Assembly (NCBI RefSeq): GCF_023558375.1
Contig: NZ_CP083761.1
Coordinates: 1,539,001-1,603,000, forward strand
DNA from: Chroococcidiopsis sp. CCMEE 29
GTDB lineage: Bacteria > Cyanobacteriota > Cyanobacteriia > Cyanobacteriales > Chroococcidiopsidaceae
Direction: 5' to 3'
DNA: 64,000 bases
Under the pieces are notes generated by a model, which made no database searches, was not told the DNA's origin, and saw nothing but the letters and a program-made list of their open reading frames with translations. Of this stretch, positions 4,012 through 54,094 are shown piece after piece. Each line of letters opens with the position of its first letter. Position 1 is the stretch's first letter. The translations under genes were made by a program, and so were the position numbers.

Positions 4012-4170
4012 ATTTTGGATCGCAAGCAGACGTGGAGTTTGACCACTTATGTTGCTGCCTATTAACTTTCCTTACTTACAAAACTTCTAGCCAGGAGAAC
4101 CAGCCCTGCAGTCAAAGCCTAGATAGCTAGAGTCCTTCTTGAGTTATCAGTATGCTACTCAAAGGGCAGA

Positions 4171-4206
4171 AACTGGACAATACAGATAAGTTCAGAAGTT
4201 TTACAG
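4171..4206 (-). promoter_or_regulatory. conserved intergenic element, copy a
   Basis: One of eight copies of a 36-nt element. In the direction of the minus-strand gene it reads CTGTAAAAC, then TTCTGAACTT, then ATCTGTATTGTCC. It is 160 bp upstream of the hypothetical gene at 3526-4011. Between element and gene are the shared leader blocks: an AGCATA box, AAGGACTCTAGCTATCTAGG, and a GGTTCTCCTGGCTAG block. Copies a and c are the most alike over this leader. Function is inferred: activator or alternative-sigma promoter site. Confidence 0.7.
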
Positions 4207-10112: not shown

Positions 10113-10148
10113 AACTTGTCGATACAGAAAAGTTCAGATGTTTTACAG
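10113..10148 (-). promoter_or_regulatory. conserved intergenic element, copy b (upstream of metK)
   Basis: Written on the plus strand it has AACTTGTCGATACAG, then AAAAGTTCAG, then ATGTTTTACAG, almost the consensus of the eight copies. It contains the imperfect dyad AACTTGT and AAAAGTT spaced by 8 nt. The nearest downstream minus-strand gene is metK. The extra leader blocks of copies a, c and e are not evident here. Confidence 0.7.
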
Positions 10149-11206: not shown

Positions 11207-11404
11207 AAAATTTTCCTTGCAATGGTAAATCAACAGCAGAGCATAAGCTTATGTTCTTTATGAACTAGATTCTTAGCTATCTGAATTAGCAACTTGCATG
11301 TAACTTTGAATTACAAAATTTCTAGTTAGGAAACTAGCGGTGCAATCAAAGCTTAGACAGCTACATTCCTTCTTGAGTTGGCAATATACTATGCTGAGAG
11401 CAAA

Positions 11405-11440
11405 AATCTGGTCAATACAGATAAGTTCAGAAGTTTTATC
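11405..11440 (-). promoter_or_regulatory. conserved intergenic element, copy c
   Basis: It lies 199 bp upstream of the methyltransferase start. It has the full leader in gene orientation: element, a TATATT box, AAGGAATGTAGCTGTCTAAG, then CTAGTTTCCTAACTAG, which is itself a perfect inverted repeat (CTAGTT and AACTAG). A second half-site, AAGTTCGG, is 63 bp further upstream at 11486. Confidence 0.72.
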
Positions 11441-15203: not shown

Positions 15204-15240
15204 AACGTTGTCGATATAGAAAAGTTCAGAAGTTTTACAG
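15204..15240 (-). promoter_or_regulatory. conserved intergenic element, copy d
   Basis: It is 206 bp upstream of the GT2-GT2-GH30 unit. It has one extra base in the AACGTTGTCG segment compared with the other copies. In gene orientation it is followed by GAGCATATTGAAG and AATTTAGCTATCTAGG, the shared leader blocks. A second half-site AAGTTCAG is at 15266, 44 bp further upstream. Confidence 0.72.
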
Positions 15241-21908: not shown

Positions 21909-21981
21909 TGTTACCTCCATTAGTGGGAGCTGTTAAATTGGACAGGAATATTAAGGCTTCTAATTAAAATCGGGTTTCACA

Positions 21982-23006
21982 CCTTCAGCAGTGGATGAGG
22001 CTGCTCCGTGAAATACTCCGATAGATTGCTGCTATATCTGCAACCTCTGTAGTGATAGAACGCACCGGTCTAATTCCTTGGCGCAGCCGTTCGAGTAAGT
22101 TGGCATCCACTGCTAGCCGGGTAATAGCGTCAGTCCACGCTCTGACATCATTGGGTGGAATGAGTAATCCATCTACACCATGTCTGACCAGCTCAGCAAT
22201 ACCCCCGAGATTTGACCCCAACACCGGGGTAGCTGCAGCATGAGCTTCTAGCACTACCAGTGGTCCCGTTTCAAGCCATTGTGATGGCACAGCTAGTACG
22301 TCAAACCTTGCTAATGCTGAGGGCAAGTCTTCTCGTGATAAGGGCTGAGCTACATGAATGCGATTGTCATTGGCGATGCTTGCTAGGATTTGCTTTCGGT
22401 ATTGCTCGTCATCCCCTACTGCGTGGATCGTCAATTCGATGGAAACATCAGTAGGTAAACACTTTAATGCTTCTACCAGAATGTGAATGCCTTTATCTTG
22501 ACTCCAGCGCCCCAGAAAACCAACCCGCAAAGGTTCGCTCGGCTGTTTTAACTTGGGTGCTGCCTTCTGAAAAGAATCAGGAATCCCATATCGACACAGC
22601 ACAAGCTTTTCTCTCGGTATCCCGTTAGCTAACAGGGCTTCATACAGCCACTCACATACCACCACTATCCGGTCTGCAAATTTAGCCATCTCTTGCAAGC
22701 CGTATTGACGCGCAGCTACAAAGGTCGGCACAACAAAAGGACTAAGCAACTTTTCGGCAATTACGCCTCCTGTCCCAGGTGTGGAGGTGAAGCGACGAAG
22801 TAATCCCCTTGCCATCTGGCTGATAGGTATCGGCGTATGGCTCAAGTTGTTAATCGCTGCTGCCGATAGACTCTTGGGTACGCCACAACATTGGCTGCAC
22901 CGCACTTGCTCGATCTTGCCATCACATGCCTGTTGTCCGTAGAGCATCAGTGTATGCCGCTGGCAAATTGGTATCGGTAGGTGTAGTGTCACCACCGTCG
23001 CCATAT
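21982..23006. repeat. 1,025-bp duplicated segment, copy 1 (intact gene)
   Basis: This stretch is, as far as I can compare by eye, identical base for base to 29892-30916, in the same orientation and at a constant offset of 7,910 bp. It covers codons from an internal Met (ATGGCGACGG) to just after the stop of the GT4 gene. A few further bases (TTCAC) match on the left with one mismatch. Confidence 0.9.
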
Positions 23007-23352: not shown

Positions 23353-23507
23353 TATTTTTATGACTTGACTCCATCCAGACCAATTCCAATTACAGGTTTC
23401 TTCATCTAGCAACCCGAATCACAATTTTACTTTTCAGGAAACTAGAACTGTGTTTTTACGCCTAGACAGCTAAATTCCTTCTTCGATTATCCTCTTCCAA
23501 GAGCGAG

Positions 23508-23543
23508 AACTTGTCGATACAGACAAGTTCAGTTGTTTTACCG
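23508..23543 (-). promoter_or_regulatory. conserved intergenic element, copy e
   Basis: This copy has a perfect inverted repeat, AACTTGT and ACAAGTT around CGATACAG, the best dyad of the eight. It lies 156 bp upstream of the GT4 start. The leader blocks AAGGAATTTAGCTGTCTAGG and CTAGTTTCCTG follow in gene orientation. A second half-site AAGTTCAG at 23567 is 42 bp further upstream. Confidence 0.75.
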
Positions 23544-27826: not shown

Positions 27827-28996
27827 TAGGACTGTGGAGTTGATAGATATGGAAATAGTTGATTAGAGATATTATCTACTGACTGCACCCTTTAACTTTC
27901 AGCAAATAGTTTTACTTCCCAGGGATATTCGACCATCAGAGAGATTACAAAACCATCTACAGCCAAATGCAACCTCGACACTTATACCTTATTCCTGTTA
28001 GCTGAACCTAAGTACGCAGGCTGCAACCGCTTGTCAGAAATTCTTAAGCACGTCTCACACGACAGCGTCAATCGCTTCTTGTTAAGGGAAAGATATCAAC
28101 CTAAAGACTTGTTTGAAGAGATAAAACCACACATTCAATTGGTGGGCGGCACTTTAAGCTGTGACGATACCGTTATTGATAAACCTTATAGTGAGCCAAA
28201 TTTAGCTGAACTAATTGGATACTTTTGGTCAGGAAAACATCATCGAATTGTTAAAGGGCTTCACCTCATTACCCTGTATTACACCGACGCATCAGCTAAG
28301 TCTATCCCAGTTAATTATCGGATCTACGATAAGCGGGAGGGTTTGACAAAAAACGATTACTTTCGAGTAATGATTACGGAGGTTTTGGCTTGGGGCTTGC
28401 AGCCAGAAACGGTAACTGGTGATGCTTGGTATTCAGCCCTTGAAAATCTGAAATTCTTGAAAAACCGGGAAGTAGGATTTCTCATGGGTATTGCCAAAAA
28501 TCGAAAAGTCTCAACTGATGGTAAAAATTACACCCAGGTACAAAATTTGGAAATTCCTGACCAAGGTTTGGTAATACATCTGAAAAACTTTGGGCGCGTC
28601 AAAGTATTTCGGAGGATATTCAAAAACGAAGCCGAGAGATACTACATTACATACCTACCTAATTCAGATGCTACCGAACAAGTTAGCCGACAGGAATTCA
28701 ATGAGTCGCACTCAATCCATTGGGGAATTGAATGCTATCACCGAGCCTTGAAACAACTGTGTGGAGTTTCGCGGTTTATGGTCAGAACAAGTGAGGCTAT
28801 TAAAACTCACATTTTTTGTTCAATCCGAGCCTTTACTAAGTTAGAGTTAATGCGAGCTGAAGAACTAATTGAAAACTGGTACGAATTACAAAAGAATTTG
28901 TACCTACAGGTGGCAAGGGAATTCATTCTAGAACACCTCCAGCAGAAACTTGAAGTGAATTTACATAATCAGTCTTTTGTCAATGCGTAAGTCCTA
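27827..28996 (+). mobile_element. IS4/IS701-superfamily insertion sequence, 1,170 bp, in the GT11 gene
   Basis: The ends are TAGGACTGTGGAGTTGATA and, inverted, TAGGACTTACGCATTGACA: 7 perfect terminal bases and 13 of 19 matching overall. The flanking duplication is AGAGAG (27821-27826 and 28997-29002). Removing the element and one duplication restores the GT11 reading frame across the junction (KVPLYRIF), confirming the boundaries. Confidence 0.86.
28031..28990 (+). CDS. DDE transposase of the IS4/IS701 type, N terminus without a clear start
   Basis: Catalytic residues sit in LSCDDTVIDKP, VTGDAWYSALE and HWGIECYHRALKQ. The coordinates begin at a TTG, but the same frame continues upstream (CNLDTYTLFLLAEPKYAGCNRL) to a stop at 27893 without any ATG, GTG or TTG in that part. 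The family normally has those extra residues. Either an unusual start is used or the 5' end is mutated and the element is dead. Confidence 0.82.
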   Translation: MSEILKHVSHDSVNRFLLRERYQPKDLFEEIKPHIQLVGGTLSCDDTVIDKPYSEPNLAELIGYFWSGKHHRIVKGLHLITLYYTDASAKSIPVNYRIYDKREGLTKNDYFRVMITEVLAWGLQPETVTGDAWYSALENLKFLKNREVGFLMGIAKNRKVSTDGKNYTQVQNLEIPDQGLVIHLKNFGRVKVFRRIFKNEAERYYITYLPNSDATEQVSRQEFNESHSIHWGIECYHRALKQLCGVSRFMVRTSEAIKTHIFCSIRAFTKLELMRAEELIENWYELQKNLYLQVAREFILEHLQQKLEVNLHNQSFVNA

Positions 28997-29891
28997 AGAG
29001 AGGAACTTTACCATAAAAAGAAGCCCACATAGTATAAGTGCTGGGAGGTCCAATAATATAGTCACATTGAGCAAGCAAATATAAGTCTTCTATTAAATGA
29101 CCAGTACCAAAGAAAGAATGGATCCAGAAAAATCTTCCTCGCTTTGTTTAACATTAGATAATATTAAAAATGCTATGTTTTTATCATGAAACAAATTTTG
29201 AATTCTTTTCATTATTTGCATATATGTTTCTGTATTATAGAAATATTTTCCACTCAAAAAAGTTTTGTAATCTCCTTGTCAAATGTGAATTCCTATCAAG
29301 ATATCAGCTTCTTTCCTGACCTTTTTAACTATTTTAATAACATTGTTTTGGAATGTATCCAATGGCTCGAAAAAACTTCTTACTGTATCAGCATGTTTTC
29401 CAAGGTTTGAGTAGTCGCGAAACAACCAACCATGAACAAAAGTAATTTGTTTGGGATTAATAGTTTTAACAAAACTAGGATTGTCTAAACAAAATACTTG
29501 TTCTCCAAAGTCTAGTTCTAAGTTAAGGTTTTCTAGTTTAATAACCCTTAAAAAAGGATTATTAATTTGATTTTTCGCAATCTGCTTTGTTAATTCTTGA
29601 GTAAGTTTAAGAGAAAACTTCCGTGCTAATTTGTTTTTATATAAGAGAGACTTGCTTTGAGGATATCTACAAAAGATATCTTTGCTAGTTGTTTTAAAAA
29701 AAGCAGCGTACTCATCAAAGCTAGGGTTTACCACAGTAAAATTGTTTTCTATAGCACAAGCAATAAAATGAGAGAAAAGAAATAACCTATTTCCTAATTG
29801 TCCAGTTTTATTTGCAATGATAAACATGAGCCATCATCCGCAGTATGAGTATTGAAAACTACTATTTTTTAATAATTTAGGAGGCTTCACG

Positions 29892-30916
29892 CCTTCAGCA
29901 GTGGATGAGGCTGCTCCGTGAAATACTCCGATAGATTGCTGCTATATCTGCAACCTCTGTAGTGATAGAACGCACCGGTCTAATTCCTTGGCGCAGCCGT
30001 TCGAGTAAGTTGGCATCCACTGCTAGCCGGGTAATAGCGTCAGTCCACGCTCTGACATCATTGGGTGGAATGAGTAATCCATCTACACCATGTCTGACCA
30101 GCTCAGCAATACCCCCGAGATTTGACCCCAACACCGGGGTAGCTGCAGCATGAGCTTCTAGCACTACCAGTGGTCCCGTTTCAAGCCATTGTGATGGCAC
30201 AGCTAGTACGTCAAACCTTGCTAATGCTGAGGGCAAGTCTTCTCGTGATAAGGGCTGAGCTACATGAATGCGATTGTCATTGGCGATGCTTGCTAGGATT
30301 TGCTTTCGGTATTGCTCGTCATCCCCTACTGCGTGGATCGTCAATTCGATGGAAACATCAGTAGGTAAACACTTTAATGCTTCTACCAGAATGTGAATGC
30401 CTTTATCTTGACTCCAGCGCCCCAGAAAACCAACCCGCAAAGGTTCGCTCGGCTGTTTTAACTTGGGTGCTGCCTTCTGAAAAGAATCAGGAATCCCATA
30501 TCGACACAGCACAAGCTTTTCTCTCGGTATCCCGTTAGCTAACAGGGCTTCATACAGCCACTCACATACCACCACTATCCGGTCTGCAAATTTAGCCATC
30601 TCTTGCAAGCCGTATTGACGCGCAGCTACAAAGGTCGGCACAACAAAAGGACTAAGCAACTTTTCGGCAATTACGCCTCCTGTCCCAGGTGTGGAGGTGA
30701 AGCGACGAAGTAATCCCCTTGCCATCTGGCTGATAGGTATCGGCGTATGGCTCAAGTTGTTAATCGCTGCTGCCGATAGACTCTTGGGTACGCCACAACA
30801 TTGGCTGCACCGCACTTGCTCGATCTTGCCATCACATGCCTGTTGTCCGTAGAGCATCAGTGTATGCCGCTGGCAAATTGGTATCGGTAGGTGTAGTGTC
30901 ACCACCGTCGCCATAT
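29892..30916. repeat. 1,025-bp duplicated segment, copy 2
   Basis: Identical to 21982-23006. Its right border lies directly next to GCGTCCTCTTCAA, which is the end sequence of the TTGAAGAGGACGC repeat seen at 4.3 and 5.5 kb. The left border is TTCACGCCTTC against TTCACACCTTC in copy 1. Confidence 0.9.
29895..30914 (-). pseudogene. 5'-truncated exact copy of the GT4 glycosyltransferase
   Basis: The open frame encodes 339 residues identical to the last 339 of the GT4 at 21985. It lacks the first about 116 residues, i.e. most of the acceptor-binding domain, and starts at what is an internal Met in the full copy. It lies 12 bp after the stop of the phosphodiesterase gene and could be translated, but a GT-B enzyme without this half is unlikely to work. 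The absence of any base change means the duplication is recent or the copies are kept alike by gene conversion. Confidence 0.8.
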
Positions 30917-30926
30917 AGCGTCCTCT

Positions 30927-32603
30927 TCAATACGCTGGCTGTAATTGAGATGCTGGCACCTCCAATAGCGGCTTACCCTCACAGTACTCAGGAATTGGTG
31001 CATCCATCAACTTTAAGATTGTGGGGGCTAAGTCTAGAGCATGACCGACTGGTAAGCTAGAACCAGGAGCAATGCCTGACCCCTGAGCCATGAAAAATCC
31101 TTGGGAGCGATGGCTGCCTGTCCGATGATGTGGAACTGGACCAATACGTCCGAGGTCAGGGCTATCTACAACATCAGTGGCATGTTCCTCTTGCCAAATA
31201 ACTACTAGGTCAGCATCAGGCAACTTGGGGTCCCGATCCGTTGCATGTTGCCGTGTCCGAATAATTTTCTGAACCATTGGTTTGCCCGTTCGACCATCTC
31301 TAAGGCAATAAAGTTGTTGGCTCAGCTCATCACAAAAGGCATCATACTCCGATGGCGCCACAATTCCCTCAGGCTCCCGTTCTTGCAGATTAATCCGAAT
31401 ATAACCTTCCGAAAAGCTAGGCAATGCAAATGCTTTCATTTGAGACCAGAATGGTTTGTACCAGATTGCTGGCTGATAGAACAACGAATCTGACTGCTTT
31501 TGTAGTTGGTGAAAAGAAACAAGATCCGGTTGTGGTGCAGCACCGAACAAAGGCTCTAGGCGATTGAAAAGTTTAGTCGGTGTATTTCGCCTCAAGAATC
31601 CTTTAACCGGATTAGATTCATGTTTCAAGCCCCAAACCGTTCCAAGCCAGCCTCCCCATCTTGCACGTCCCTCAGTCATTGGCTGTTTAGGAGTTGTCCC
31701 CATTTTTCCAGGTGCAATCCCAAATTTTCCTGGAAAATTAAATCGATAGAGCAGCTCTGGTAAAAACAGCATACTGGGGAGGTCCATAATATTGGAGCCC
31801 ATGCCGTGGGTAGCAAAAACTAGGACATAAGCATCTTCTGGTGCTTTTGCCAGGATTTCCCCAATCGCTTGATCTACAGCTTCGAAGACTTCAAGCAGGG
31901 CGTCACCAGGGGAGCGAACTCCTAATATCGGATAGAGGGGATGGTCAGGCTGACTTAGATGCCACAGGTAATGCGCTGCAGAATGCGTTTCGCCAAAGAG
32001 TGTCAAAAACAGGTCCCATGGCTCTCGTTGCAGTAGGTCTTGACAAATGGCAGAGCGACGGGAGATTCCCGTCTCAAGGGCTTTCTGAAGCTTCGCTAAG
32101 TCAGTTAAGTTTAGACAATTTGCATAGTCCTTGTTAAGTGCAGGATGCTCACCGTGCTGGCTAATTAGCTCCTGCAAGAGTTGTGTAGGCCGAGAATGGC
32201 TGGGAGTTAGGGGAGCGTGCGCTCCCCAAGCTAGAACCTGTACACCATTTACTTGCTCAGAAAGTGTAGAATGCGGCATGTCAAATACCGCTACTCGGTA
32301 GTCATCCCCTAAGGCATAGAACGGTGGGTACTCGGTAAAGTCATAGGCTTCAATTTCTTCTATGTCATAGGTGCCTTCAAGCAGTTTTACGGGCGCCCAG
32401 TAACCTGTCTTCTCAGGCAAGCAACCTGTCAAAAAAGTCGTTAATGGCGTCTCTGCCCTGTAGTAGTCAAGGTTGTTAAGGCGAGTATAAGCTCCCTGCG
32501 CGCGTAGACGACGCAGATTCTTCAGGTGTCCTTGAGACATCCATGTCTCAAGTAATGAGGGATCGGCTGCATCCAGACCAATCGCAATCACAGGTTTCTT
32601 CAT
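30927..32603 (-). CDS. alkaline phosphatase superfamily / type I phosphodiesterase-nucleotide pyrophosphatase-like enzyme
   Basis: A 558-residue cytoplasmic-type protein. AIGLDAADPSLLETWM is the first metal-binding strand, TPLTTFLTG holds the likely nucleophile Thr, and FATHGMGSN and PVPHHRTGSHR supply later metal ligands, as in the type I phosphodiesterase/nucleotide pyrophosphatase family. Such enzymes recur in cyanobacterial glycan clusters; they may cleave a phosphodiester or remove a phospho-group from a glycan intermediate, but the substrate is not known. It starts 263 bp downstream of element copy f (about 160 without an inserted repeat) and heads the unit that runs into the broken GT4 and GT11 genes. 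Confidence 0.82.
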   Translation of the reverse strand: MKKPVIAIGLDAADPSLLETWMSQGHLKNLRRLRAQGAYTRLNNLDYYRAETPLTTFLTGCLPEKTGYWAPVKLLEGTYDIEEIEAYDFTEYPPFYALGDDYRVAVFDMPHSTLSEQVNGVQVLAWGAHAPLTPSHSRPTQLLQELISQHGEHPALNKDYANCLNLTDLAKLQKALETGISRRSAICQDLLQREPWDLFLTLFGETHSAAHYLWHLSQPDHPLYPILGVRSPGDALLEVFEAVDQAIGEILAKAPEDAYVLVFATHGMGSNIMDLPSMLFLPELLYRFNFPGKFGIAPGKMGTTPKQPMTEGRARWGGWLGTVWGLKHESNPVKGFLRRNTPTKLFNRLEPLFGAAPQPDLVSFHQLQKQSDSLFYQPAIWYKPFWSQMKAFALPSFSEGYIRINLQEREPEGIVAPSEYDAFCDELSQQLYCLRDGRTGKPMVQKIIRTRQHATDRDPKLPDADLVVIWQEEHATDVVDSPDLGRIGPVPHHRTGSHRSQGFFMAQGSGIAPGSSLPVGHALDLAPTILKLMDAPIPEYCEGKPLLEVPASQLQPAY

Positions 32604-32691
32604 TTAGTCACGTACCTGAACTACAAAATTACTTGGCAGGGAACTAGTACTACGGAATGGCTAAGCTGTTAAACATCTAATATTGCCTGTT

Positions 32692-32865: not shown

Positions 32866-32901
32866 AACTTGTCGATTCAGATAAGGTCAGGTGTTTTACA
32901 G
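32866..32901 (-). promoter_or_regulatory. conserved intergenic element, copy f
   Basis: It has AACTTGTCGATTCAG, ATAAGGTCAG and GTGTTTTACAG on the plus strand. Both this half-site and the second one 46 bp further upstream (32929) carry the same variant, AAGGTCAG instead of AAGTTCAG. It precedes the phosphodiesterase-like unit. Confidence 0.7.
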
Positions 32902-32997: not shown

Positions 32998-33945
32998 TCA
33001 CTCTAGGTTCCCCAAAACTAAAAGCTGAATCTTGGCAAGCTGCGATCGCATGGAAGCCCAAGCTCGTCCTGTAGCAGCTTTGCTTCGGTCAAGATTTGCT
33101 AGTTGACCTAAGTATGTTACCGAGTTGCTGTCTCCTAAGCGGTACTCAAAGTCTGCAAGCTGCATACTTTGCGCTTCCCGCTGGGAAATTTTCTGCGCCA
33201 TCTGAAATTCACGTCTGGATGTATCAAAGTCGAAAACGGCTAGGGCAACTTTTTCTTTGATCTGATTCCCTAGTTCAGCCCGTCCGCGCTGGATTTCCGC
33301 TAGCTTCACCTGTAAGTCACTGATGGCGATCGCTCGCTCTTGCTTCTGGTTGCTGCTGTCTAATAAGCTGTCGAACAGAGGAATACCTACTGCTCTAAGC
33401 ACTTCATTGATAATTTTTACGGGTGAGGTGAAGATTTGAGCGATTTTCTCTAGGGGTCCGAACTGCCGTTGACCCGAGTTGGGCTGAGTCGCATAGCTTG
33501 GCTCTAGAAACACCCTGACTGCGGGACGCAGGACGGAGAGGTCAATCGATTTTTTATTAGCAGCTTTTGCCTCTGCCATTTTGGTACTGATTTCCTTGAT
33601 GCGAATGTCTATCTCTTGCAAAAGGGGATTTTGCTGGTCAGCCATGGCTTGAAGCTGAGCAATGCATTCTGTGGTAGCATCCAAGCACGGTAGCTTACCT
33701 TTCATTTGCTGCCACAAGTCAGCATTAATACTCTGCTGAATCAAGTTGTCTAGCGAATCCTCAGTTAGACTCAGTTGATGCGGAGACGTGGGGGAAGAGG
33801 ACACGGAGAACTTCTCCGTGTCTTTGACTGGTGGGAGCGAGGACGAAGTTGCCTGAGCCTGGAGTGGGTACAGATGTAGGAATGCCAGCGACAGCAAGAG
33901 TAATTTCAATAGTAAGGTCGTTGTTAGTCTGGTCTTGAATTTCAA
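32998..33945 (-). CDS. exported coiled-coil protein, possible outer-membrane partner of the HlyD-like adaptor
   Basis: About 315 residues. A strong signal peptide (LTTTLLLKLLLLSLAFLHLY ending LQAQA) is seen only if translation starts at a TTG (33945) or nearby GTG; the much longer open frame upstream runs through the HlyD gene and reads as nonsense. The mature part has two long helices (about 165-215 and 215-290 of the chain) of TolC-like character and no beta-barrel I can trace. It overlaps the adaptor gene by about 185 bp. Probable role: periplasmic or outer-membrane component of an export machine. Start uncertain. Confidence 0.68.
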   Translation of the reverse strand: MKFKTRLTTTLLLKLLLLSLAFLHLYPLQAQATSSSLPPVKDTEKFSVSSSPTSPHQLSLTEDSLDNLIQQSINADLWQQMKGKLPCLDATTECIAQLQAMADQQNPLLQEIDIRIKEISTKMAEAKAANKKSIDLSVLRPAVRVFLEPSYATQPNSGQRQFGPLEKIAQIFTSPVKIINEVLRAVGIPLFDSLLDSSNQKQERAIAISDLQVKLAEIQRGRAELGNQIKEKVALAVFDFDTSRREFQMAQKISQREAQSMQLADFEYRLGDSNSVTYLGQLANLDRSKAATGRAWASMRSQLAKIQLLVLGNLE

Positions 33946-35002
33946 GGCGTTGGACAACGCCACTGTAAGGGCTGGCAATAACTGATAGGGATGAGAGCTG
34001 CTTGTCAACCTCGGCGATTTTAGTTTGAATTTGAGCCAGATGGAACCAGCGATCGCGCTGTTGCTGTTTTGCCTCCAACAGCTGGCGGTAATAGTTCTGA
34101 GCTGCCTGATTTTTCTCCTGTGCACTTCGAGTTGCGGTAACTGATGCCTCATACTCGGTGTAAGCTCTTTGGTCTTTTTTCGTCTGTAGTTTGGCGATCG
34201 CCAACTGGTGATCCGCTTTAGCTTTTTGCACTGATGCCGACAAGCTAGAGAGTTTTTCAGTTTCCGACGCTTTGCGCCCACTCAATTTTGCTTGAGCCTT
34301 TTGGTACTCAACCTGAGCCTGTTGCAGTTCTGCAGAGCGCTGCTTTAAAACTTCTTGCTCGTGGACGGAGACACTAGGCGGTAATTCCTTCAGTGTTGCC
34401 ACTACGTCAATCTTCCGTTGCTGCTTTTCCAAAAGGCGCTGACGGTTCTGAACCTCGATAGCGGCTGAGGCTACCGTGCTTGATTCTTCTAATGGTTCAG
34501 TCTTAAGGTTTTCCTGCTGCAGCTGCAAGGCCTTTTCTGCCTGCTGTACATTCATAGCAGCGGCACGGATTGCTGCTTCTTCCTCAACATAAGAAATCGG
34601 CGGCAGGCTTTTAATTTCGGGAACGCTCACTGGTGTCGGTGGGATAGTAACCGTCTTGGCCTGGATTTGCTTGAATGACAACTCCAAACCTTGGCGCTGG
34701 GTAGTAAGGTGCGATCGCTCCTCCACCTGCTCCGCCAGTACTTCACCAACTGTTACTATATCTCCCTGCTTGACCTTCAGGTCTTTAGGTGAGGAAACTG
34801 ACAAATTGAACTTAAGTAACTGGGGTGAATTAGAGCTACTCACAACCGGTGGCGCTGAGGCAGATGGTAGAACCCAGGCAGTAGTTTGGGTCTGAATATA
34901 ATTACCATAGCCCCTAGGCAGTCTCTGCCCGATCAAAAGCAGCCCTACAGAAGAGGATAATCCTAAAAAAATCAGGATTTGTCGTAATCCAGAACTGTAC
35001 AC
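33761..35002 (-). CDS. HlyD-family periplasmic adaptor (membrane fusion protein)
   Basis: 413 residues with a GTG start. One N-terminal membrane helix (about 8-26), a lipoyl-like half (DLKVKQGDIVTVGEVLAEQ), long coiled coils (about 125-310) and the second half ASPYSGVVQRLEIQ. This is the MFP layout linking an inner-membrane pump to an outer-membrane channel. The last 30 residues come from a GCGTC-type repeat and overlap the next gene. No transporter ATPase or permease is adjacent, so the inner-membrane partner must be elsewhere or be the ABC pair at 50 kb. Confidence 0.82.
   Translation of the reverse strand: MYSSGLRQILIFLGLSSSVGLLLIGQRLPRGYGNYIQTQTTAWVLPSASAPPVVSSSNSPQLLKFNLSVSSPKDLKVKQGDIVTVGEVLAEQVEERSHLTTQRQGLELSFKQIQAKTVTIPPTPVSVPEIKSLPPISYVEEEAAIRAAAMNVQQAEKALQLQQENLKTEPLEESSTVASAAIEVQNRQRLLEKQQRKIDVVATLKELPPSVSVHEQEVLKQRSAELQQAQVEYQKAQAKLSGRKASETEKLSSLSASVQKAKADHQLAIAKLQTKKDQRAYTEYEASVTATRSAQEKNQAAQNYYRQLLEAKQQQRDRWFHLAQIQTKIAEVDKQLSSLSVIASPYSGVVQRLEIQDQTNNDLTIEITLAVAGIPTSVPTPGSGNFVLAPTSQRHGEVLRVLFPHVSASTESN
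33781..33823. repeat. palindromic GCGTC-family repeat inside two overlapping coding frames
   Basis: It contains a perfect 11-bp inverted repeat, GACACGGAGAA and TTCTCCGTGTC, with one base between (33800-33822), preceded by GGAGACGTGGGGGAAGAGG. It is read in both the HlyD C terminus and the start of the exported partner. Confidence 0.75.
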
Positions 35003-35179: not shown

Positions 35180-35359
35180 TTATTCAGTTCTTTGTTGGTT
35201 AAGGTATTCTTCTACTGCCTGGCTAAGATTCTGCAAATTTTGACCAACACTGGTAATTCTGGCTTCTAGTTGTGCCAGTAATAAAACCGCTGTTTGCAAT
35301 TGGTTAAGATTTTCCTCAATTGCTTGCTTATACTGGGCTTCAAACTCGTCCAACTCCAT
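35180..35359 (-). CDS. small coiled-coil protein downstream of the sigma factor gene
   Basis: A 59-codon ORF below common length cut-offs: it starts MELDEFEAQYKQAIEENL and ends EEYLNQQRTE. It is almost entirely one heptad helix with Leu, Ile and Val at a and d positions. It lies 68 bp after the sigma factor stop on the same strand. No Cys or His metal site is present. It could oligomerise or bind a partner, and its position next to a group 3 sigma gene makes a regulatory partner worth testing. Function unknown. Confidence 0.6.
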   Translation of the reverse strand: MELDEFEAQYKQAIEENLNQLQTAVLLLAQLEARITSVGQNLQNLSQAVEEYLNQQRTE

Positions 35360-35427
35360 AGCCTATATCCACTATTACTAAACTTGATATTTGCTGTTTA
35401 TCAACATCTATAAAGACTTGGAAAATC

Positions 35428-36213
35428 TCATGCCCCAGATTGCCAAACTTGCGACTGCAACAGGAATAACAATTGTTCCTTTCCTCTTTTTAAGTATCGT
35501 GTTACTGTCACCGGACTGGTGCCAATCTGCTTAGCAGTTTCTTTACAAGAAAGTTGCTTCAAAAACACAAACTCAACTGCTATCCTAACTTTTTCTTCCA
35601 ACTGGCTTATAGCCCCTTGCAGTTGTTGTCGCTCTTCTTCTTGTTGCTGGAGAATATTAGAGTGCGGATCGGGTAACACTTCAGCTAAAGTTATTGGGCA
35701 ATCAATATGCTGAATCATGGTGGTATCCAAACTCAGAGTTATGCGATTTTGTGCAGCTAAGTTGCTATTTTGCCATTCTTCAGCGGATACCTGAAGTTTC
35801 TGCACAATTTCACTATCCTTTGGAGGGCGTCCCAAGGTTGAAGTCAATTCTTGACGAACTTTTTGCCCTTGTTTATAGATTTCTTGCCATCGACGGGGAA
35901 TTTTTACTATACCAGTGCGGTCGCGTAAAAAATGTAGGAGCTCGCCCCGAATGTAGGCAACTGCAAAGGAACTAAAAGCATATCCTCGATTGGGGTTGAA
36001 ACGCTCAATGGCATGAATCAAACCCAAATAACCAATTTGTTCCAAATCTTCAAAAGGTTCAGTACATTGATAACTGAATTGACGAGCCATCTTCCGCACT
36101 AAACCAGCATGTAATTCTACCAGTTGATTCCGAAGTTTAATTGAGGGATTTCGATAGTATAAAATTAATAGCTCTAATCTATCAGAATAAATACAAGACT
36201 GAGTCACAGACAT
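35428..36213 (-). CDS. group 3 RNA polymerase sigma factor (SigF/SigJ type)
   Basis: 261 residues. Region 2 is clear (FEDLEQIGYLGLIHAIERFN and FSSFAVAYIRGELLHFLRD), followed by region 3 (GRPPKDSEIVQKLQV) and a region 4 helix-turn-helix (CKETAKQIGTSPVTVTRYLK). There is no region 1.1. The start is the ATG with AAGGAC 7 nt upstream, 30 bp after the stop of the HAD-UPF0104 gene, so it is probably the last gene of the DprE-like operon under element copy g. Group 3 sigmas in cyanobacteria are linked to pili, hormogonia and exopolysaccharide. It is the best local candidate for reading the eight-copy element, which is inference. Confidence 0.9.
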   Translation of the reverse strand: MSVTQSCIYSDRLELLILYYRNPSIKLRNQLVELHAGLVRKMARQFSYQCTEPFEDLEQIGYLGLIHAIERFNPNRGYAFSSFAVAYIRGELLHFLRDRTGIVKIPRRWQEIYKQGQKVRQELTSTLGRPPKDSEIVQKLQVSAEEWQNSNLAAQNRITLSLDTTMIQHIDCPITLAEVLPDPHSNILQQQEEERQQLQGAISQLEEKVRIAVEFVFLKQLSCKETAKQIGTSPVTVTRYLKRGKEQLLFLLQSQVWQSGA

Positions 36214-36242
36214 AAAAGTCCTTACTTTATAATCATTGAAGA

Positions 36243-37820
36243 TCAGCAAAGCCTCTTTTGCTCCCAGAGCAAAGCTGAAATTCCAATTGCAACCGCGAAC
36301 CATAGAGTAACTAAACGAATTAGGAGCGTTGCGGTGAGACTCGCAGTCTGACTTGCTCCATAAAACAAAGATAAGCTGATCATCAGCGCCTCAGTCCCAC
36401 CAATACCACCTGGCAGCAAAGATAGTGCCCCCATTAAACTTGATGCTGTGTGAATTAGTACAGCCTGATAGAGGGTAATACTCCCAGCTCCTAGATAGTG
36501 AAATATCAAATAAAGTCCTATTCCTTCCAAACCCCACGCTAGCAAAGCGAGTAATGTACTACCGATCAAAACATTAAGCTTGAGTAGAGTACTAGTACTA
36601 TCTATCAAGTTTTCTATGTTTTCAATAATCCTGTGAAGTCTACGCCATCTAGTAAAGGGCTTCAAAATTTGTTTAATTAACTTAGGCTGCTGTAGTGCAA
36701 TGATGATAGCTAGTTGCACTAAGCCAACTGCTACAACAGCTCGTCCTTGAACAACTGAGAACAGGCTTAAACAAATCAGTAACAGAACAGACAGTGCATC
36801 TGTAAACCGTTCGCAAAATAACCCAGCTAGTGTTGGTGCGACGGGAATGTTGTGACGGCGCTTGAGTAACAGCGACTTGATAGATTCTCCTGCCTTGCCT
36901 GGAGATGCAGTTAAAGCAAAGCTAGCCAAAAAGATCCGCAAGCTACTGCCTATAGGCACTTGATAGCCAACCTGTTGCAGATACCACTGCCACCGTACAA
37001 ACCTCAGACAGTAGCCAATCAAGACAAGCGACAGCAAAGCTGGAGTTAACCAAAAGGGCAATAAGTTTAATGCTGCCAAGAATTGATCGGCTCCACTAAA
37101 CAGCACAATTCCTAAATAGAGAGCCGACGCCACAACAACAGATAAAATCAATCCCCCAACCCATCTAGGAGGCAATCCTCTAGGTTCGACTGTTACAGCG
37201 TCTTGAAAGGTACGGTAATAGGGATAATTGACACAGGCAAGCAATTCCCGATCTCCTCGACTATCACCGTAGGCATATACGCAGTAACCGCTTAGATCTC
37301 CTAGTAAGGCTCTCAGTCGGCCAACTTTTTCTCTGCCATAGCAGTTCTTTTGCAGAATTCGCCCCGTCAAGAGACCAGCTCGGGCTTCTAGTTGAGTGCC
37401 AATTACCTGGTCAAACCCCATCGTTTGCGCCCAAGGGAGTAAGTAAGCTTCCAAAGAAGCACTAACAAGTACAATCTGATGTCCTTGTTCCTGATGCCAA
37501 CCTAGACGCTGCAAAGCCTCAGGACGAAGCAATTTAGGTATTTTCTGAGCTGCAAAGCGTTGCCCTAGCTGTTGCAGTTTCTCCTCTGACAAACCTGAAA
37601 GGAAATAGGCTAATACCGTTTCCTTTGCTCGCCAGTTCTGCACCAAGTGCAGGGCATATCCCACCAAAACGGGACTGAGGATAAACAGTCCCCACCAAAA
37701 CCGGGATGGTCCTACAACCACCTTGAGAAACGGGAAGAACGAGTCCCGATCGGTCAAAGTACCATCAAAATCAAATATTGCTATGGTGGGCAGTGATTGT
37801 AAACTAGGTGGATCTTTCAT
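36243..37820 (-). CDS. HAD-IB phosphatase fused to UPF0104 (LPG-synthase/AglD-type) membrane domain
   Basis: 525 residues. Residues 1-210 are a HAD-IB phosphatase with the catalytic IFDFDGTLTD, LVSASLEAY and YAYGDSRGDRE. From about 220 to the end there are eight or more membrane helices with TASPGKAGESIKSLLLKRR and SLLPGGIGGTEALM, signatures of the UPF0104 flippase-like family. Its start overlaps the preceding DprE2-like gene by 4 bp (ATGA), indicating translational coupling. A soluble phosphatase joined to a lipid-handling membrane domain suggests dephosphorylation and flipping or transfer of a polyprenyl-linked sugar. The fusion was not familiar to me. Confidence 0.86.
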   Translation of the reverse strand: MKDPPSLQSLPTIAIFDFDGTLTDRDSFFPFLKVVVGPSRFWWGLFILSPVLVGYALHLVQNWRAKETVLAYFLSGLSEEKLQQLGQRFAAQKIPKLLRPEALQRLGWHQEQGHQIVLVSASLEAYLLPWAQTMGFDQVIGTQLEARAGLLTGRILQKNCYGREKVGRLRALLGDLSGYCVYAYGDSRGDRELLACVNYPYYRTFQDAVTVEPRGLPPRWVGGLILSVVVASALYLGIVLFSGADQFLAALNLLPFWLTPALLSLVLIGYCLRFVRWQWYLQQVGYQVPIGSSLRIFLASFALTASPGKAGESIKSLLLKRRHNIPVAPTLAGLFCERFTDALSVLLLICLSLFSVVQGRAVVAVGLVQLAIIIALQQPKLIKQILKPFTRWRRLHRIIENIENLIDSTSTLLKLNVLIGSTLLALLAWGLEGIGLYLIFHYLGAGSITLYQAVLIHTASSLMGALSLLPGGIGGTEALMISLSLFYGASQTASLTATLLIRLVTLWFAVAIGISALLWEQKRLC

Positions 37821-38560
37821 AGCTTCAACCGCTTAAACAAAGGCTCAGGGATGAAGCGAATGATCAGCATAATCCAGAACCAGAACCAGGGAACATAGAC
37901 AATGTTCTTCTGCTTCTGTAAAGCTTTCATGACAGCGATCGCTACTTGCTCAGGACTAGCCACTAAAAACATCCCTGGCTTGCCAAAGGTCATTTTGGTA
38001 TCTACGAAGCCCGGTTTGACGGTCAACACGCGTACATTAGATTTAGACAGACGATTGCGTAGTCCTTGAAGAAACAAATGTAGAGCACCTTTAGCAGACC
38101 CATAGACGTAATTGCTTTGACGCCCTCGGTCTCCAGCTACAGAAGCTAAGCCAATGATAAAACCATGTTTCTGTTGTTCCAGGTGGTTTGCTACGTGAGT
38201 TAAAATAGATACAACTCCTGTGTAGTTGGAGTGGATGATGCCCTGGGCATGGTCAAAGTCTGTCTGAGCCTTGTGCTGGTCACCCAACTCTCCTAAAGCT
38301 ACAACGACGCCATCTAAACGACCTAACTTATAGGTAACCTTTTGAAGCAAGTCAATGTGAGATTGATAATCTTCTGCCTCAAAAGCACTCCAAGACACGG
38401 GAGACGAATAGCGGAGGGCTATGTCCCTAGCAACCCGCTCGGCTTCGAAGACATCACGAGCCGTTAGATGTAATGTCGCTCCCTGCTGGACCATTTTGCT
38501 TGCGAGAGCCCGGGCAATACTGGAAGTAGCTCCTACCACGAGAACAGCTTTTCCTTTCAT
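37817..38560 (-). CDS. SDR family reductase, DprE2-like
   Basis: 248 residues. GATSSIARALA is the NAD(P) motif, YVYGSAKGAL the active-site Tyr-X3-Lys, and TVKPGFVDTKMT the segment after it. By sequence pattern and by its position it resembles DprE2, which completes the 2-epimerisation of decaprenyl-phosphoryl ribose to arabinose with DprE1. The start ATG overlaps the DprE1-like stop (ATGA). Substrate lipid in a cyanobacterium is unknown. Confidence 0.8.
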   Translation of the reverse strand: MKGKAVLVVGATSSIARALASKMVQQGATLHLTARDVFEAERVARDIALRYSSPVSWSAFEAEDYQSHIDLLQKVTYKLGRLDGVVVALGELGDQHKAQTDFDHAQGIIHSNYTGVVSILTHVANHLEQQKHGFIIGLASVAGDRGRQSNYVYGSAKGALHLFLQGLRNRLSKSNVRVLTVKPGFVDTKMTFGKPGMFLVASPEQVAIAVMKALQKQKNIVYVPWFWFWIMLIIRFIPEPLFKRLKL

Positions 38561-39933
38561 ATTGACTGGATCTGCAAACGCTTGGACAAAGCAGAGGAGA
38601 ACAGGTTGTGTGGGTCTAGTTTGGACTTCACCTCTAGCCACTTGGGAAAGTTAGGATACATCTTGCGGAAGGATTCCGCACTTAAGCGAGCATCTTTAGC
38701 AAGATATACTCGACCACCATAATGAATAACGATTTGGTCAAGCTCATCCAAAAATTTCCATAATCCGGGCTTGAGGGGCATATCTAAAGCTAGGGTATAG
38801 CCAGACATGGGAAAAGATAGCCATCCTTCTTGCTGACCTAAGCGTTTTAGCACTCCTAAGAAAGAGCCCCAACCTTTCTGGCTACAAAGCTTTAAGACTT
38901 TCACCAATGCTTCTCGACTGACCTCAGTAGGCAATACGCATTGATACTGGATAAATCCTCCTCTGCCATAAAGTCGGTTCCAATTCCACAAAAAGTCTAA
39001 TGGGTAGAAGAAGGAGTCGTAATCAACAACTGAGTAGGCAAATCGAGAGCACTGGCGATTATAGTAAAATGCATTGAAGCGATTCATGGTGTAGCGGTTA
39101 AGCAGTCCAGTCGGTAGGTCAAACCCAACCGTGAATCGGCGTTTGGGTTTTACATCTAAAGGCTTTGCTTGCTGCTCGCGATCGAGATTTTTGCTCTCAG
39201 CATGATTGCCGAACGTCAAAATACTCCGACCTAATGATTCTCCTGATGCTAGACAGTCAATCCAAGCTGCAGAATACTGGTATTGCTGTTCGTACTGGTG
39301 GAAAAGGGCGATCGCCTCATCTAAGTTCTTTGCTTTGATGCTGAGGGATCTGATATACGCTGTTTGAATTGGGCGTAAGGAAAACTCTACCTCAGTAATG
39401 ATTCCTGTGAGTCCCATCCCTCCGACTGTTGCCCAGAATAGCTCGCTGTTGTAATTGCGGGAACAGTGTACAGTTTCTCCAGATGCCAGAATCAGTTTTA
39501 AGCTCTGCACATAATGGGAAAAAGAACCATCTCGATGATGGTTTTTGCCATGAACGTCAAAGGCAACAGCGCCACCAACTGTGACAAATTTCGTCCCTGG
39601 AGTTACCGCTGGAAACCAGCCCCTGGGTACGAAAACTTCTAAAATCTCTTCAATCGTGACTCCCGCCTCACAGCAGAGAACTCCTGTCTGCTGGTCGAAG
39701 GCCAGCATGCGGTTCAAACGTTCAGTTAGTACAGTCTGACCTTTTGGGGTGAGTGCTGCATCTCCGTAGCTACGACCTGCACCTTTAGGCAGAACAGTCT
39801 GAGATTCTTGAATTATGTTCTTTAAGGATGAAATTTTTTCCGGCCGCTGCAGGTAGCTTTTAACAACAGGATATCTGCCCCAGCCTGACAGGGCTACCTC
39901 ACGGGCTGAATTCTGACAACGAGCTTTTGGCAC
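38557..39933 (-). CDS. FAD-dependent oxidoreductase, DprE1-like
   Basis: 458 residues with a GTG start. FAD-binding LPKGAGRSYGDAAL and GGAVAFDVHGKNHHRDGSF, then FWATVGGMGLTGI, closely follow mycobacterial DprE1 as I remember it, including GGRVYLAKDAR with the catalytic Lys. At the position of the Cys targeted by covalent inhibitors in the mycobacterial enzyme (WNICVDFP) this protein has YTLALDMP, i.e. Ala. With the next two genes it forms a coupled operon. It would oxidise the 2-OH of a polyprenyl-phosphoryl pentose. Element copy g is 307 bp upstream, with repeats inserted between. Confidence 0.87.
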   Translation of the reverse strand: MPKARCQNSAREVALSGWGRYPVVKSYLQRPEKISSLKNIIQESQTVLPKGAGRSYGDAALTPKGQTVLTERLNRMLAFDQQTGVLCCEAGVTIEEILEVFVPRGWFPAVTPGTKFVTVGGAVAFDVHGKNHHRDGSFSHYVQSLKLILASGETVHCSRNYNSELFWATVGGMGLTGIITEVEFSLRPIQTAYIRSLSIKAKNLDEAIALFHQYEQQYQYSAAWIDCLASGESLGRSILTFGNHAESKNLDREQQAKPLDVKPKRRFTVGFDLPTGLLNRYTMNRFNAFYYNRQCSRFAYSVVDYDSFFYPLDFLWNWNRLYGRGGFIQYQCVLPTEVSREALVKVLKLCSQKGWGSFLGVLKRLGQQEGWLSFPMSGYTLALDMPLKPGLWKFLDELDQIVIHYGGRVYLAKDARLSAESFRKMYPNFPKWLEVKSKLDPHNLFSSALSKRLQIQSI

Positions 39934-40036
39934 TATCGATAAGTAGGAGGTTTTGAGGGAATTGCTAGGACTTTTGACAAGATAATGACGCGGGGACGCG
40001 GAGAACCATCAGAAGGGGATTCGTACCCCTCATACC

Positions 40037-40066
40037 ATTTTGGATTTTAGATTTTGGATTGTGAAA
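40037..40066. repeat. AT-rich tandem repeat (TTTTGGATTTTAGA type)
   Basis: Two units of ATTTTGGATTTTAG with variations. The same repeat is found in coding sequence at 48723-48756, where it encodes KIQNLKSKI, and at the end of the SDR gene (1689-1712). Confidence 0.65.
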
Positions 40067-40239
40067 TCCCTATGGATAGGTAGTTTCGGCGATTCAAATG
40101 TTGCAACAATAAAACAAAATGGGATCAGTAATGGGCAGAGAACCAAATTGCTGCGATCGAGAAACATCGGCTCCTTTCCGGGTCTTCTTTGGTCAAGTAG
40201 TATTCTCAATAAGTACGAGTATGATCTGCTAACAAGCCA

Positions 40240-40275
40240 AATTTGTCGATACAGAAAAGTTCAGCAGTTTTCTAG
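40240..40275 (-). promoter_or_regulatory. conserved intergenic element, copy g
   Basis: It has AATTTGTCGATACAG, AAAAGTTCAG and CAGTTTTCTAG on the plus strand. It precedes the DprE1-DprE2-HAD/UPF0104-sigma factor unit. The leader blocks of copies a, c and e are not visible, but two repeats lie between element and gene. Confidence 0.68.
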
Positions 40276-53791: not shown

Positions 53792-54094
53792 GCATGCCAG
53801 TACTTTTAGATGTCAAGTGCTCTATTGGCAGCTAGGTCAAGACATGATACATGTTAAGTCTAGGTTGATTGGTTAATCAGAGCGAAATTGTGTGTTACGG
53901 AACCTAACTGAGAGATTTACGCCCCATTTTAAGCATCATGCTGGGATAATTATAATCGTAAATGTCAAAATTGGTCGATACAGAAAAGTTCAGATGTTTT
54001 ACCGAGTTAGTGTTATCTTTTTCCCCAACAGAGAATTGCTCTGCCTTTAGAGGATTCCAGGGCAGTGATTTTTGATTTTACTTTTTTTGTCACT
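53792..54094. other. 303-bp intergenic region with element copy h
   Basis: It contains element copy h (53969-54004) and an AT-rich piece near 54068-54080 similar to the KIQNLKSKI repeat. No gene is seen. Confidence 0.55.
53969..54004 (-). promoter_or_regulatory. conserved intergenic element, copy h
   Basis: It has AATTGGTCGATACAG, AAAAGTTCAG and ATGTTTTACCG on the plus strand. It lies 178 bp upstream of the lyase gene. The longer leader blocks are not evident. Confidence 0.7.

Follow-up and report, generated by a model that had tools for sequence, protein, structure and literature searches.

We analysed a 64,000-nucleotide stretch of the cyanobacterium Chroococcidiopsis sp. CCMEE 29 (the window; G000:C1:1539001-1603000, within a 6.39-Mb genome; contig NZ_CP083761.1), in which a short repeated element with the core AAAACNNCTGAACTTWTCTGTATCGAC occurs eight times, compared to a mean of 0.00 expected from 100 shuffles. 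One of these copies, copy g, heads a tight run of minus-strand genes that encodes, from 5' to 3', a DprE1-like protein, a DprE2-like protein, a HAD/UPF0104 fusion and, in the last position, a group 3 sigma factor of the SigJ type. Our findings suggest that the element is read by a large STAND protein and that the sigma gene is a target of this regulator, not the reader of the element; we estimate the probability of this explanation as a whole at roughly two in three. A preceding sequence-only reading had proposed the sigma factor itself as the reader, and with it an autoregulated operon.

Distribution of the element

In the whole genome, 22 copies of the element were found with a 27-base pattern (up to 3 mismatches) and 25 with the 20-base core (up to 2 mismatches). 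For the genome's own element set, 25 hits were cut to 23 by removing two with 4 mismatches. With up to 3 mismatches to the 20-base core, 19 copies were found in a 181-kb stretch around the window, and for 18 of these the next open reading frame (ORF) of at least 90 codons is on the same strand, at a distance of 101-819 nt; many of the genes headed by element copies are polysaccharide-like by eye. The information content around the core extends from about -11 to +34. Within the order, 59 of 388 genomes carry the element. At some loci (L078, L079 and L152), a CTGAACTTTT half recurs every 10 bp, and in other families inverted AAAAGTTAAG-like halves are located upstream (L137-L139, L161-L163).

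Parts of the leader between element and start codon are also shared, as at window positions 4117-4140, 11351-11374 and 23460-23483 (e.g. GCCTAGACAGCTAAATTCCTTCTT) and further at 11308-11337, 23416-23445 and 32618-32647; a function of the conserved leader as RNA is possible. In L152 and L153, from another family, small proteins in tandem have element-like sites between them; judged by eye, these proteins look like leader-containing precursor peptides.

A STAND head domain coincides with the element in distribution and position

The candidate reader was first spotted in 18 slices of other genomes, where large NTPase-type proteins with a common N-terminal domain recurred among the genes surrounding elements. 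In Chroococcidiopsis sp. CCMEE 29, the corresponding protein has 1196 amino acids (aa; C1:1633507-1637097) and consists of a conserved, helix-turn-helix (HTH)-like head, an NB-ARC domain (51 bits, cut-off 23.5) and WD40 repeats, which is the combination of an NB-ARC/NACHT-type NTPase with a repeat sensor that characterizes STAND NTPases. Its gene is located within the same 140-kb polysaccharide region as the elements, the nearest of which is 6.6 kb away. This protein is probably the best candidate for the reader of the element.

The family sample comprises ten genomes with and nine without the element. Using the first 106 residues of the protein as query, we found the head at 75-77% identity in all nine element-bearing relatives and in none of the nine element-free genomes, where the best match was at most 56% identical. 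Together with the own genome, a close STAND orthologue is thus present in 10/10 element genomes vs 0/9 element-free ones (Fisher p = 1e-5). The two also lie close together: the distance from head to element is 2.0-5.7 kb in eight of the nine relatives and 19 kb in the ninth, each with a chance of 0.003-0.03. A second STAND copy in the own genome (L240, G000:C1:3363007-3364067; 91% identical in the head) and an isolated element at C1:3383663 are about 21 kb apart. Outside the family, among the matches listed, at least 13 of 20 element genomes have the head on the element contig at a distance of up to about 15 kb (read by hand), and at four places 78-90 bp separate head match and element.

As this match had been recognized post hoc, it was tested on 80 head-domain genes, 30 of them family members and 50 from elsewhere, whose upstream regions were taken mostly by rank with near-duplicates skipped (about 1060 nt each; two short ones of 894 and 440 nt). 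An element-like site (up to 4 mismatches) was present in 19 of the 80 regions vs 0.44% of shuffles (0.35 expected). The strand is the divergent one in all 19 cases, and the site begins 97-292 nt ahead of the head-coding match in 18 of them and 483 nt ahead in the remaining one. They are distributed over the family (9/30), the top-ranked regions outside it (5/34) and the lower-ranked ones (5/16), and ten of them stem from genomes that are element-free by the strict pattern. In what is apparently one orthologous group (L250, L251, L253-L257; head 49-56% identical), the variant CAGAGATTTTCTGTAACGAC or a close form recurs at an equivalent divergent position in seven genomes, five of which score as element-free; L252, by similar identity the eighth member, has no site.

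The site forms TATCGAC and TAACGAC are associated with different head-domain groups (L338, with TTTCTAC and residue I, was excluded from the tables; L339, with 6 mismatches, and G000 and L230, with no adjacent site, are in the wider table only). A recognition code pairing residue L of the head with TATCGAC met two exceptions in 13 TAACGAC rows (L326, L329), and the claim was withdrawn together with its covariation p-values. Since many columns separate the groups, the pattern is one of subfamilies and identifies no particular contact.

Several observations weigh against the STAND protein as reader. The presence pattern covers four genera vs three, and five of the nine element-free genomes are less than 90% complete. 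No site was found in 61 of the 80 upstream regions, including all ten of the 75-91% clade that is expected to read the element (6-7 mismatches). Seven of the 19 sites come from apparently one orthologous group, three of the last 16 regions (L308, L309, L316) were known beforehand to adjoin an element, and half of the 40 non-family genomes in the set (20/40) had been picked for having elements. Outside the family, again among the matches listed, 7/20 element genomes have no STAND gene on the element contig. The column of residue L ranks only ninth by mutual information, and eight other columns split the TATCGAC and TAACGAC groups better. The head itself gave sub-threshold matches to sigma region 4 and the AraC HTH: in 15 members compared to Pfam no cut-off was reached, with Sigma70_r4_2 appearing in 4/15 (best E 0.025), Sigma70_r4 in four (best 0.043) and HTH_AraC in 2/15 (best E 0.0021). 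As the STAND gene and the elements share polysaccharide loci, the gene may also simply hitch-hike. In the one control for this, a target gene was present in 7/19 genomes and absent from genus g3, which has both elements and the STAND gene.

A profile search of the PDB with the head was uninformative, its top match being 8vd6 ('cap repeat', E 0.00055), and PADLOC matched the STAND protein in the WD40 region only. The name 'vMAP' for the head found no support in the literature consulted and was dropped.

If the STAND head merely travels along, the element could be read by a different regulator encoded in the same loci, for example a STAND protein of the XssQ type or an OmpR/PhoB-like response regulator. 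The CTG repeats spaced 10-11 bp are reminiscent of OmpR/PhoB sites, an XssQ-like head occurs near elements in L182, and XssQ sites share the AAGTT core. However, the 181-kb own region yielded no XssQ-type head but does contain the STAND head, as do 7/18 other element-cluster slices, and the divergent sites follow the NB-ARC/WD40-type head. We consider such a regulator unlikely and favor the 1196-aa STAND protein.

The sigma factor appears to be a divergent SigJ-type paralogue, and relatives carry the element without it

The genome has 11 sigma-like places, and the window gene is the only one in C1:1.500-1.681 Mb. Three of its sigma factors are SigF/SigJ-like, namely the window copy and two others that are 71% and 45% identical to it. 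In a tree of 64 rows (sequences below 230 aa, L067 and L098, excluded; L069 without hit), the window sigma forms a lone long branch (0.33) inside the 55-row clade that holds the 71% copy and is separate from the 45% group. The 71% copy has a counterpart in 17/19 family genomes (E up to 1e-75), and genus g3 has another extra sigma copy of separate origin.

The tree contains no sequence named SigJ or SigF, and the classes were assigned by domain pattern (for cyanobacterial sigma architectures see PMC11119718), with region 2 and region 4_2 and a weak or missing region 3 for SigJ, and regions 2, 3 and 4 for SigF. The window sigma has regions 2 and 4_2 above cut-off and region 3 at 23.3, under 25.3; in three members of its clade region 3 is borderline as well (27.3, 26.9 and 22.2). 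The two members of the 45% group that were scanned reach 46.8-49.2 for region 3 and have a strong region 4. By this pattern, the clade of the window sigma appears to be of the SigJ type and the 45% group of the SigF type. Two genes on the same strand directly follow the own 45% copy, an arrangement also reported for sigF of N. punctiforme (PMC6495340). Of the columns with at least 95% conservation in the clade, ten are altered in the window sigma, five of them within residues 220-242 of region 4, and one in the own 71% copy. Judged from these sequences, the window gene appears to be a divergent, fast-changing SigJ paralogue that was found once.

Could this paralogue itself read the element, so that the operon is autoregulated and the sigma factor is the master of the regulon? 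In its favor, the paralogue is the only sigma-like place in the region, SigJ is reported to increase extracellular polysaccharide in Anabaena 7120 (PMC2758279), and the specificity of the paralogue may have shifted because ten clade-conserved columns are changed, five of them in region 4. The SigJ recognition sequence, the J-Box, is described as an extended -10 with GGG and the consensus GGGaAtacT (PMC6495340), and the own -10 surroundings (GAGCATACT-like) resemble it with a mean of 4.00 of 9 at 21 nt, the best spacing tried. On the other hand, the GGG is lacking: the J-Box was found in 0/23 own element promoters by the strict pattern (80 nt after the core) and in 1/23 by the loose one (60 nt). 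A contiguous 20-bp block with 10-bp repeats would also be unlike a sigma promoter. Furthermore, none of the nine other element-bearing family genomes has an orthologue of the window sigma, and their promoters are in several cases similar to one another. Across the 388 order genomes, a SigJ-type sigma (E up to 1e-75) is present in 38/59 element genomes vs 173/329 others, which is no significant association (p = 0.12; the counts were made by hand from two lists, and the cut-off may miss distant SigJ). The comparison of sigma clade and element that the sequence-only reading had called for thus finds each without the other, as 173 of the 211 genomes with a SigJ-type sigma have no element and 21 of the 59 element genomes have no such sigma. 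With the STAND protein tracking the element better, autoregulation by the SigJ paralogue is very improbable. As all five strict J-Box matches in the 181-kb stretch are inside ORFs, the J-Box targets of the window sigma, if there are any, would be elsewhere.

Promoter at the element and proposed mechanism

The element looks like an activator site that ends in a TCGACA -35 box. At copy g, TCGACA-17-GATCAT was scored as a sigma-70-type promoter with 9 of 12 positions; as the scan of this stretch listed 11 promoter-like sites vs 6.9 in shuffles, the single match is weak by itself. In other families (n = 21 copies), the best TATAAT-like match lies 18 nt after GAC (3.43 of 6), which corresponds to the 17-bp spacing. 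The own copies (n = 23) speak against this placement, as their best match is at 21 nt (3.17) vs 2.26 at 18 nt. Counting A at position 2 together with T at position 6, 18 nt is slightly ahead of 21 nt in the own copies (14 vs 12 of 23), and the same pairing occurs in 20/26 vs 10/26 copies in other family genomes. An ECF or FliA-type promoter was set aside, since the spacing does not fit these classes.

The sigma factor acting at the element could also be the conserved SigJ and not the window paralogue, with SigJ holoenzyme and the STAND activator jointly starting transcription. In family f1, the -10 region is similar to a J-Box minus the middle G, and a SigJ-type sigma is present in 10/10 element-bearing f1 genomes. 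In contrast, TCGACA-17-GATCAT fits a primary-type promoter, and element genomes without a SigJ-type sigma at 1e-75 exist, about a dozen of the 21 carrying a two-mismatch variant of the element. A role of the conserved SigJ at the element is therefore quite unlikely, and we propose a primary-type sigma factor together with the STAND protein.

In the proposed mechanism, the WD40/NB-ARC part of the STAND protein would sense a signal and the protein would change its state. The head would then bind the CTGAACTTTTCTGTA repeats beside the TCGACA -35 box, with CTGAACTT as half-sites, and help RNA polymerase with a primary-type sigma factor to start at a weak -10. The dprE1-like/dprE2-like/HAD-UPF0104 operon would be one of about 20 targets, and the SigJ paralogue, presumably co-transcribed as its last gene, would be carried along as an output that relays to J-Box promoters elsewhere, in a one-way relay rather than in autoregulation. 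Given the effect of SigJ on polysaccharide in Anabaena 7120, a relay from a polysaccharide switch to a SigJ regulon would be biologically sensible. More generally, cyanobacteria may hold a large undescribed family of one-protein switches (HTH-NB-ARC-WD40, or shorter), each subfamily pairing with a particular variant of one 20-bp operator, often divergent beside its gene; the member studied here would control about 20 promoters in a sugar-coat region of 140 kb and would have recruited a SigJ paralogue that relays to a second regulon. We offer this wider picture tentatively, at slightly less than even odds.

Anatomy of the operon and the window

The coordinates of element copies, promoter boxes and genes are listed in Table 1. 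They agree with the earlier description of a group 3 sigma gene at the end of a tight element-headed run in the order of the genes and the 4-bp overlaps (ATGA), of which there are two, at the dprE1-like/dprE2-like and dprE2-like/HAD junctions. The gap between the HAD stop codon and the sigma ATG, previously given as 30 bp, is 29 bp by coordinates, and a consensus scan listed no terminator-like site within it. Copy g is separated from the listed dprE1 start by 312 nt, and the listed dprE2-like ORF begins further upstream, at GTG. From their scores, the family models appear to back the names DprE1 and DprE2 as '-like' only.

Table 1 Features of the window (positions in the 64,000-nucleotide stretch)
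Feature	Position	Strand	Remarks
Element copy a	4176..4202	-	
Element copy b	10118..10144	-	
Element copy c	11411..11437	-	
Element copy d	15210..15236	-	within a 91-codon opposite-strand ORF, probably no gene
Element copy e	23513..23539	-	
Element copy f	32871..32897	-	precedes a 558-aa gene at 30927-32603
Element copy g	40245..40271	-	20-bp core CTGAACTTTTCTGTATCGAC after AAAACTG; proposed activator site with CTG half-sites 10-11 bp apart, 3' end would form the -35
Element copy h	53974..54000	-	
Putative -35 TCGACA	40244..40249	-	overlaps the element end
Putative -10 GATCAT	40221..40226	-	17-bp spacing
Alternative -10 CATACT	40218..40223	-	3 bp further on
dprE1-like FAD-linked oxidoreductase	38557..39933	-	family model DprE1 459.6 bits, cut-off 500
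dprE2-like short-chain dehydrogenase	37817..38560	-	family model DprE2 199.7 bits, cut-off 250
HAD-IB phosphatase fused to UPF0104/LPG_synthase_TM flippase-like domain	36243..37820	-	domain matches HAD plus LPG_synthase_TM
SigJ-type group 3 sigma factor	35428..36213	-	ATG, MSVTQ...; SigF subfamily PRK07408 355.3, cut-off 261
59-codon ORF, coiled-coil-like	35180..35359	-	68 bp beyond the sigma gene

The 59-codon ORF had been suggested as a partner of the sigma factor, for which its position is the sole argument. Apart from copies of the own locus, it had no homologue among the loci compared, and its sole Pfam match was Sec10_N at 21.2 bits, under the cut-off of 27.4. Beyond this ORF on the same strand (window 32998-35002) follow two further ORFs. 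One, of 413 aa, looks HlyD-like by eye but had no match in Pfam, and the other, of 427 aa, matches an outer-membrane channel (OEP); both may belong to the same run as the sigma gene.

A search of the remaining 18 family genomes (E up to 1e-40) gave no HAD/UPF0104 gene. At 1e-60 the gene is matched in 13 of the 388 order genomes, the own included, and at full length in five besides the own; no sigma gene was found in the 1.5-kb flanks of these five. As the HAD/UPF0104 relatives have no flanking sigma gene, the position of the sigma gene in the operon is, in this sample, peculiar to the own genome. One genome of another family, G230 (L230, L175-L178), has 18 element copies (up to 3 mismatches), a 63% identical STAND head on an element-bearing contig and a HAD/UPF0104 gene at 71% with no sigma gene in its flanks; it appears to hold a regulon of the same type in a distant family.

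The window also contains a 300-nt direct repeat (99% identical; 21973-22272 and 29883-30182), which is common to the ends of two ORFs. The ORF at 28031-28990 shares its first 38 and last 12 residues with an ORF of equal length (319 aa) at C1:1503128-1504087 and looks like a mobile-element gene.

Comparison with known systems

In our view, the switching of scattered cyanobacterial surface-polysaccharide genes is largely open, and XssQ is the single STAND activator characterized in the literature consulted. In STAND activators of the MalT/AfsR type, an NTPase switch is joined to a DNA-binding head, and the protein studied here may have the same layout, with a putative DNA-binding head. It differs from AfsR in its WD40 sensor and scores 22.8 bits on the AfsR NCBIfam model, vs a cut-off of 1430. 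The combination of a sigma region 4-like head with NB-ARC also resembles the SigR-type r4_2-NB-ARC-TPR proteins, which are counted among the cyanobacterial sigma factors (PMC11119718), although the STAND head stays under the Pfam cut-off for region 4 and WD40 replaces TPR.

With SigJ and its J-Box regulon, the window sigma appears to share the SigJ-type clade by architecture and tree. It is unlike that system in being an extra, fast-changing copy, and the element is without the J-Box GGGaAtacT. The presence of a sigma gene within a regulon does not by itself make it the reader of that regulon.

The closest analogy is XssQ of Synechocystis PCC 6803, reported as a STAND protein with an HTH that activates the genes for a sulfated polysaccharide (synechan) via a short repeat (PMC8205485, PMC13125312). 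By analogy, its mode of action would be that proposed for the 1196-aa protein. The two do not appear to be homologues, as blastp gave no hit at E 1e-3. XssQ has a NACHT-type NTPase (first 423 residues scanned) and acts together with XssR/XssS, whereas no such pair was seen by eye near the STAND gene. Its site AAGTTNNAC is, by inspection, not matched by the element, which reads AAGTTCAG or, on the other strand, AAGTTAAG. In the open-licence literature, we found no description of the element or of the NB-ARC/WD40 STAND family. If our explanation is correct, this family would be a second one, unrelated to XssQ, with a defined operator in 59/388 genomes of the order, so that its regulons would become predictable from sequence.

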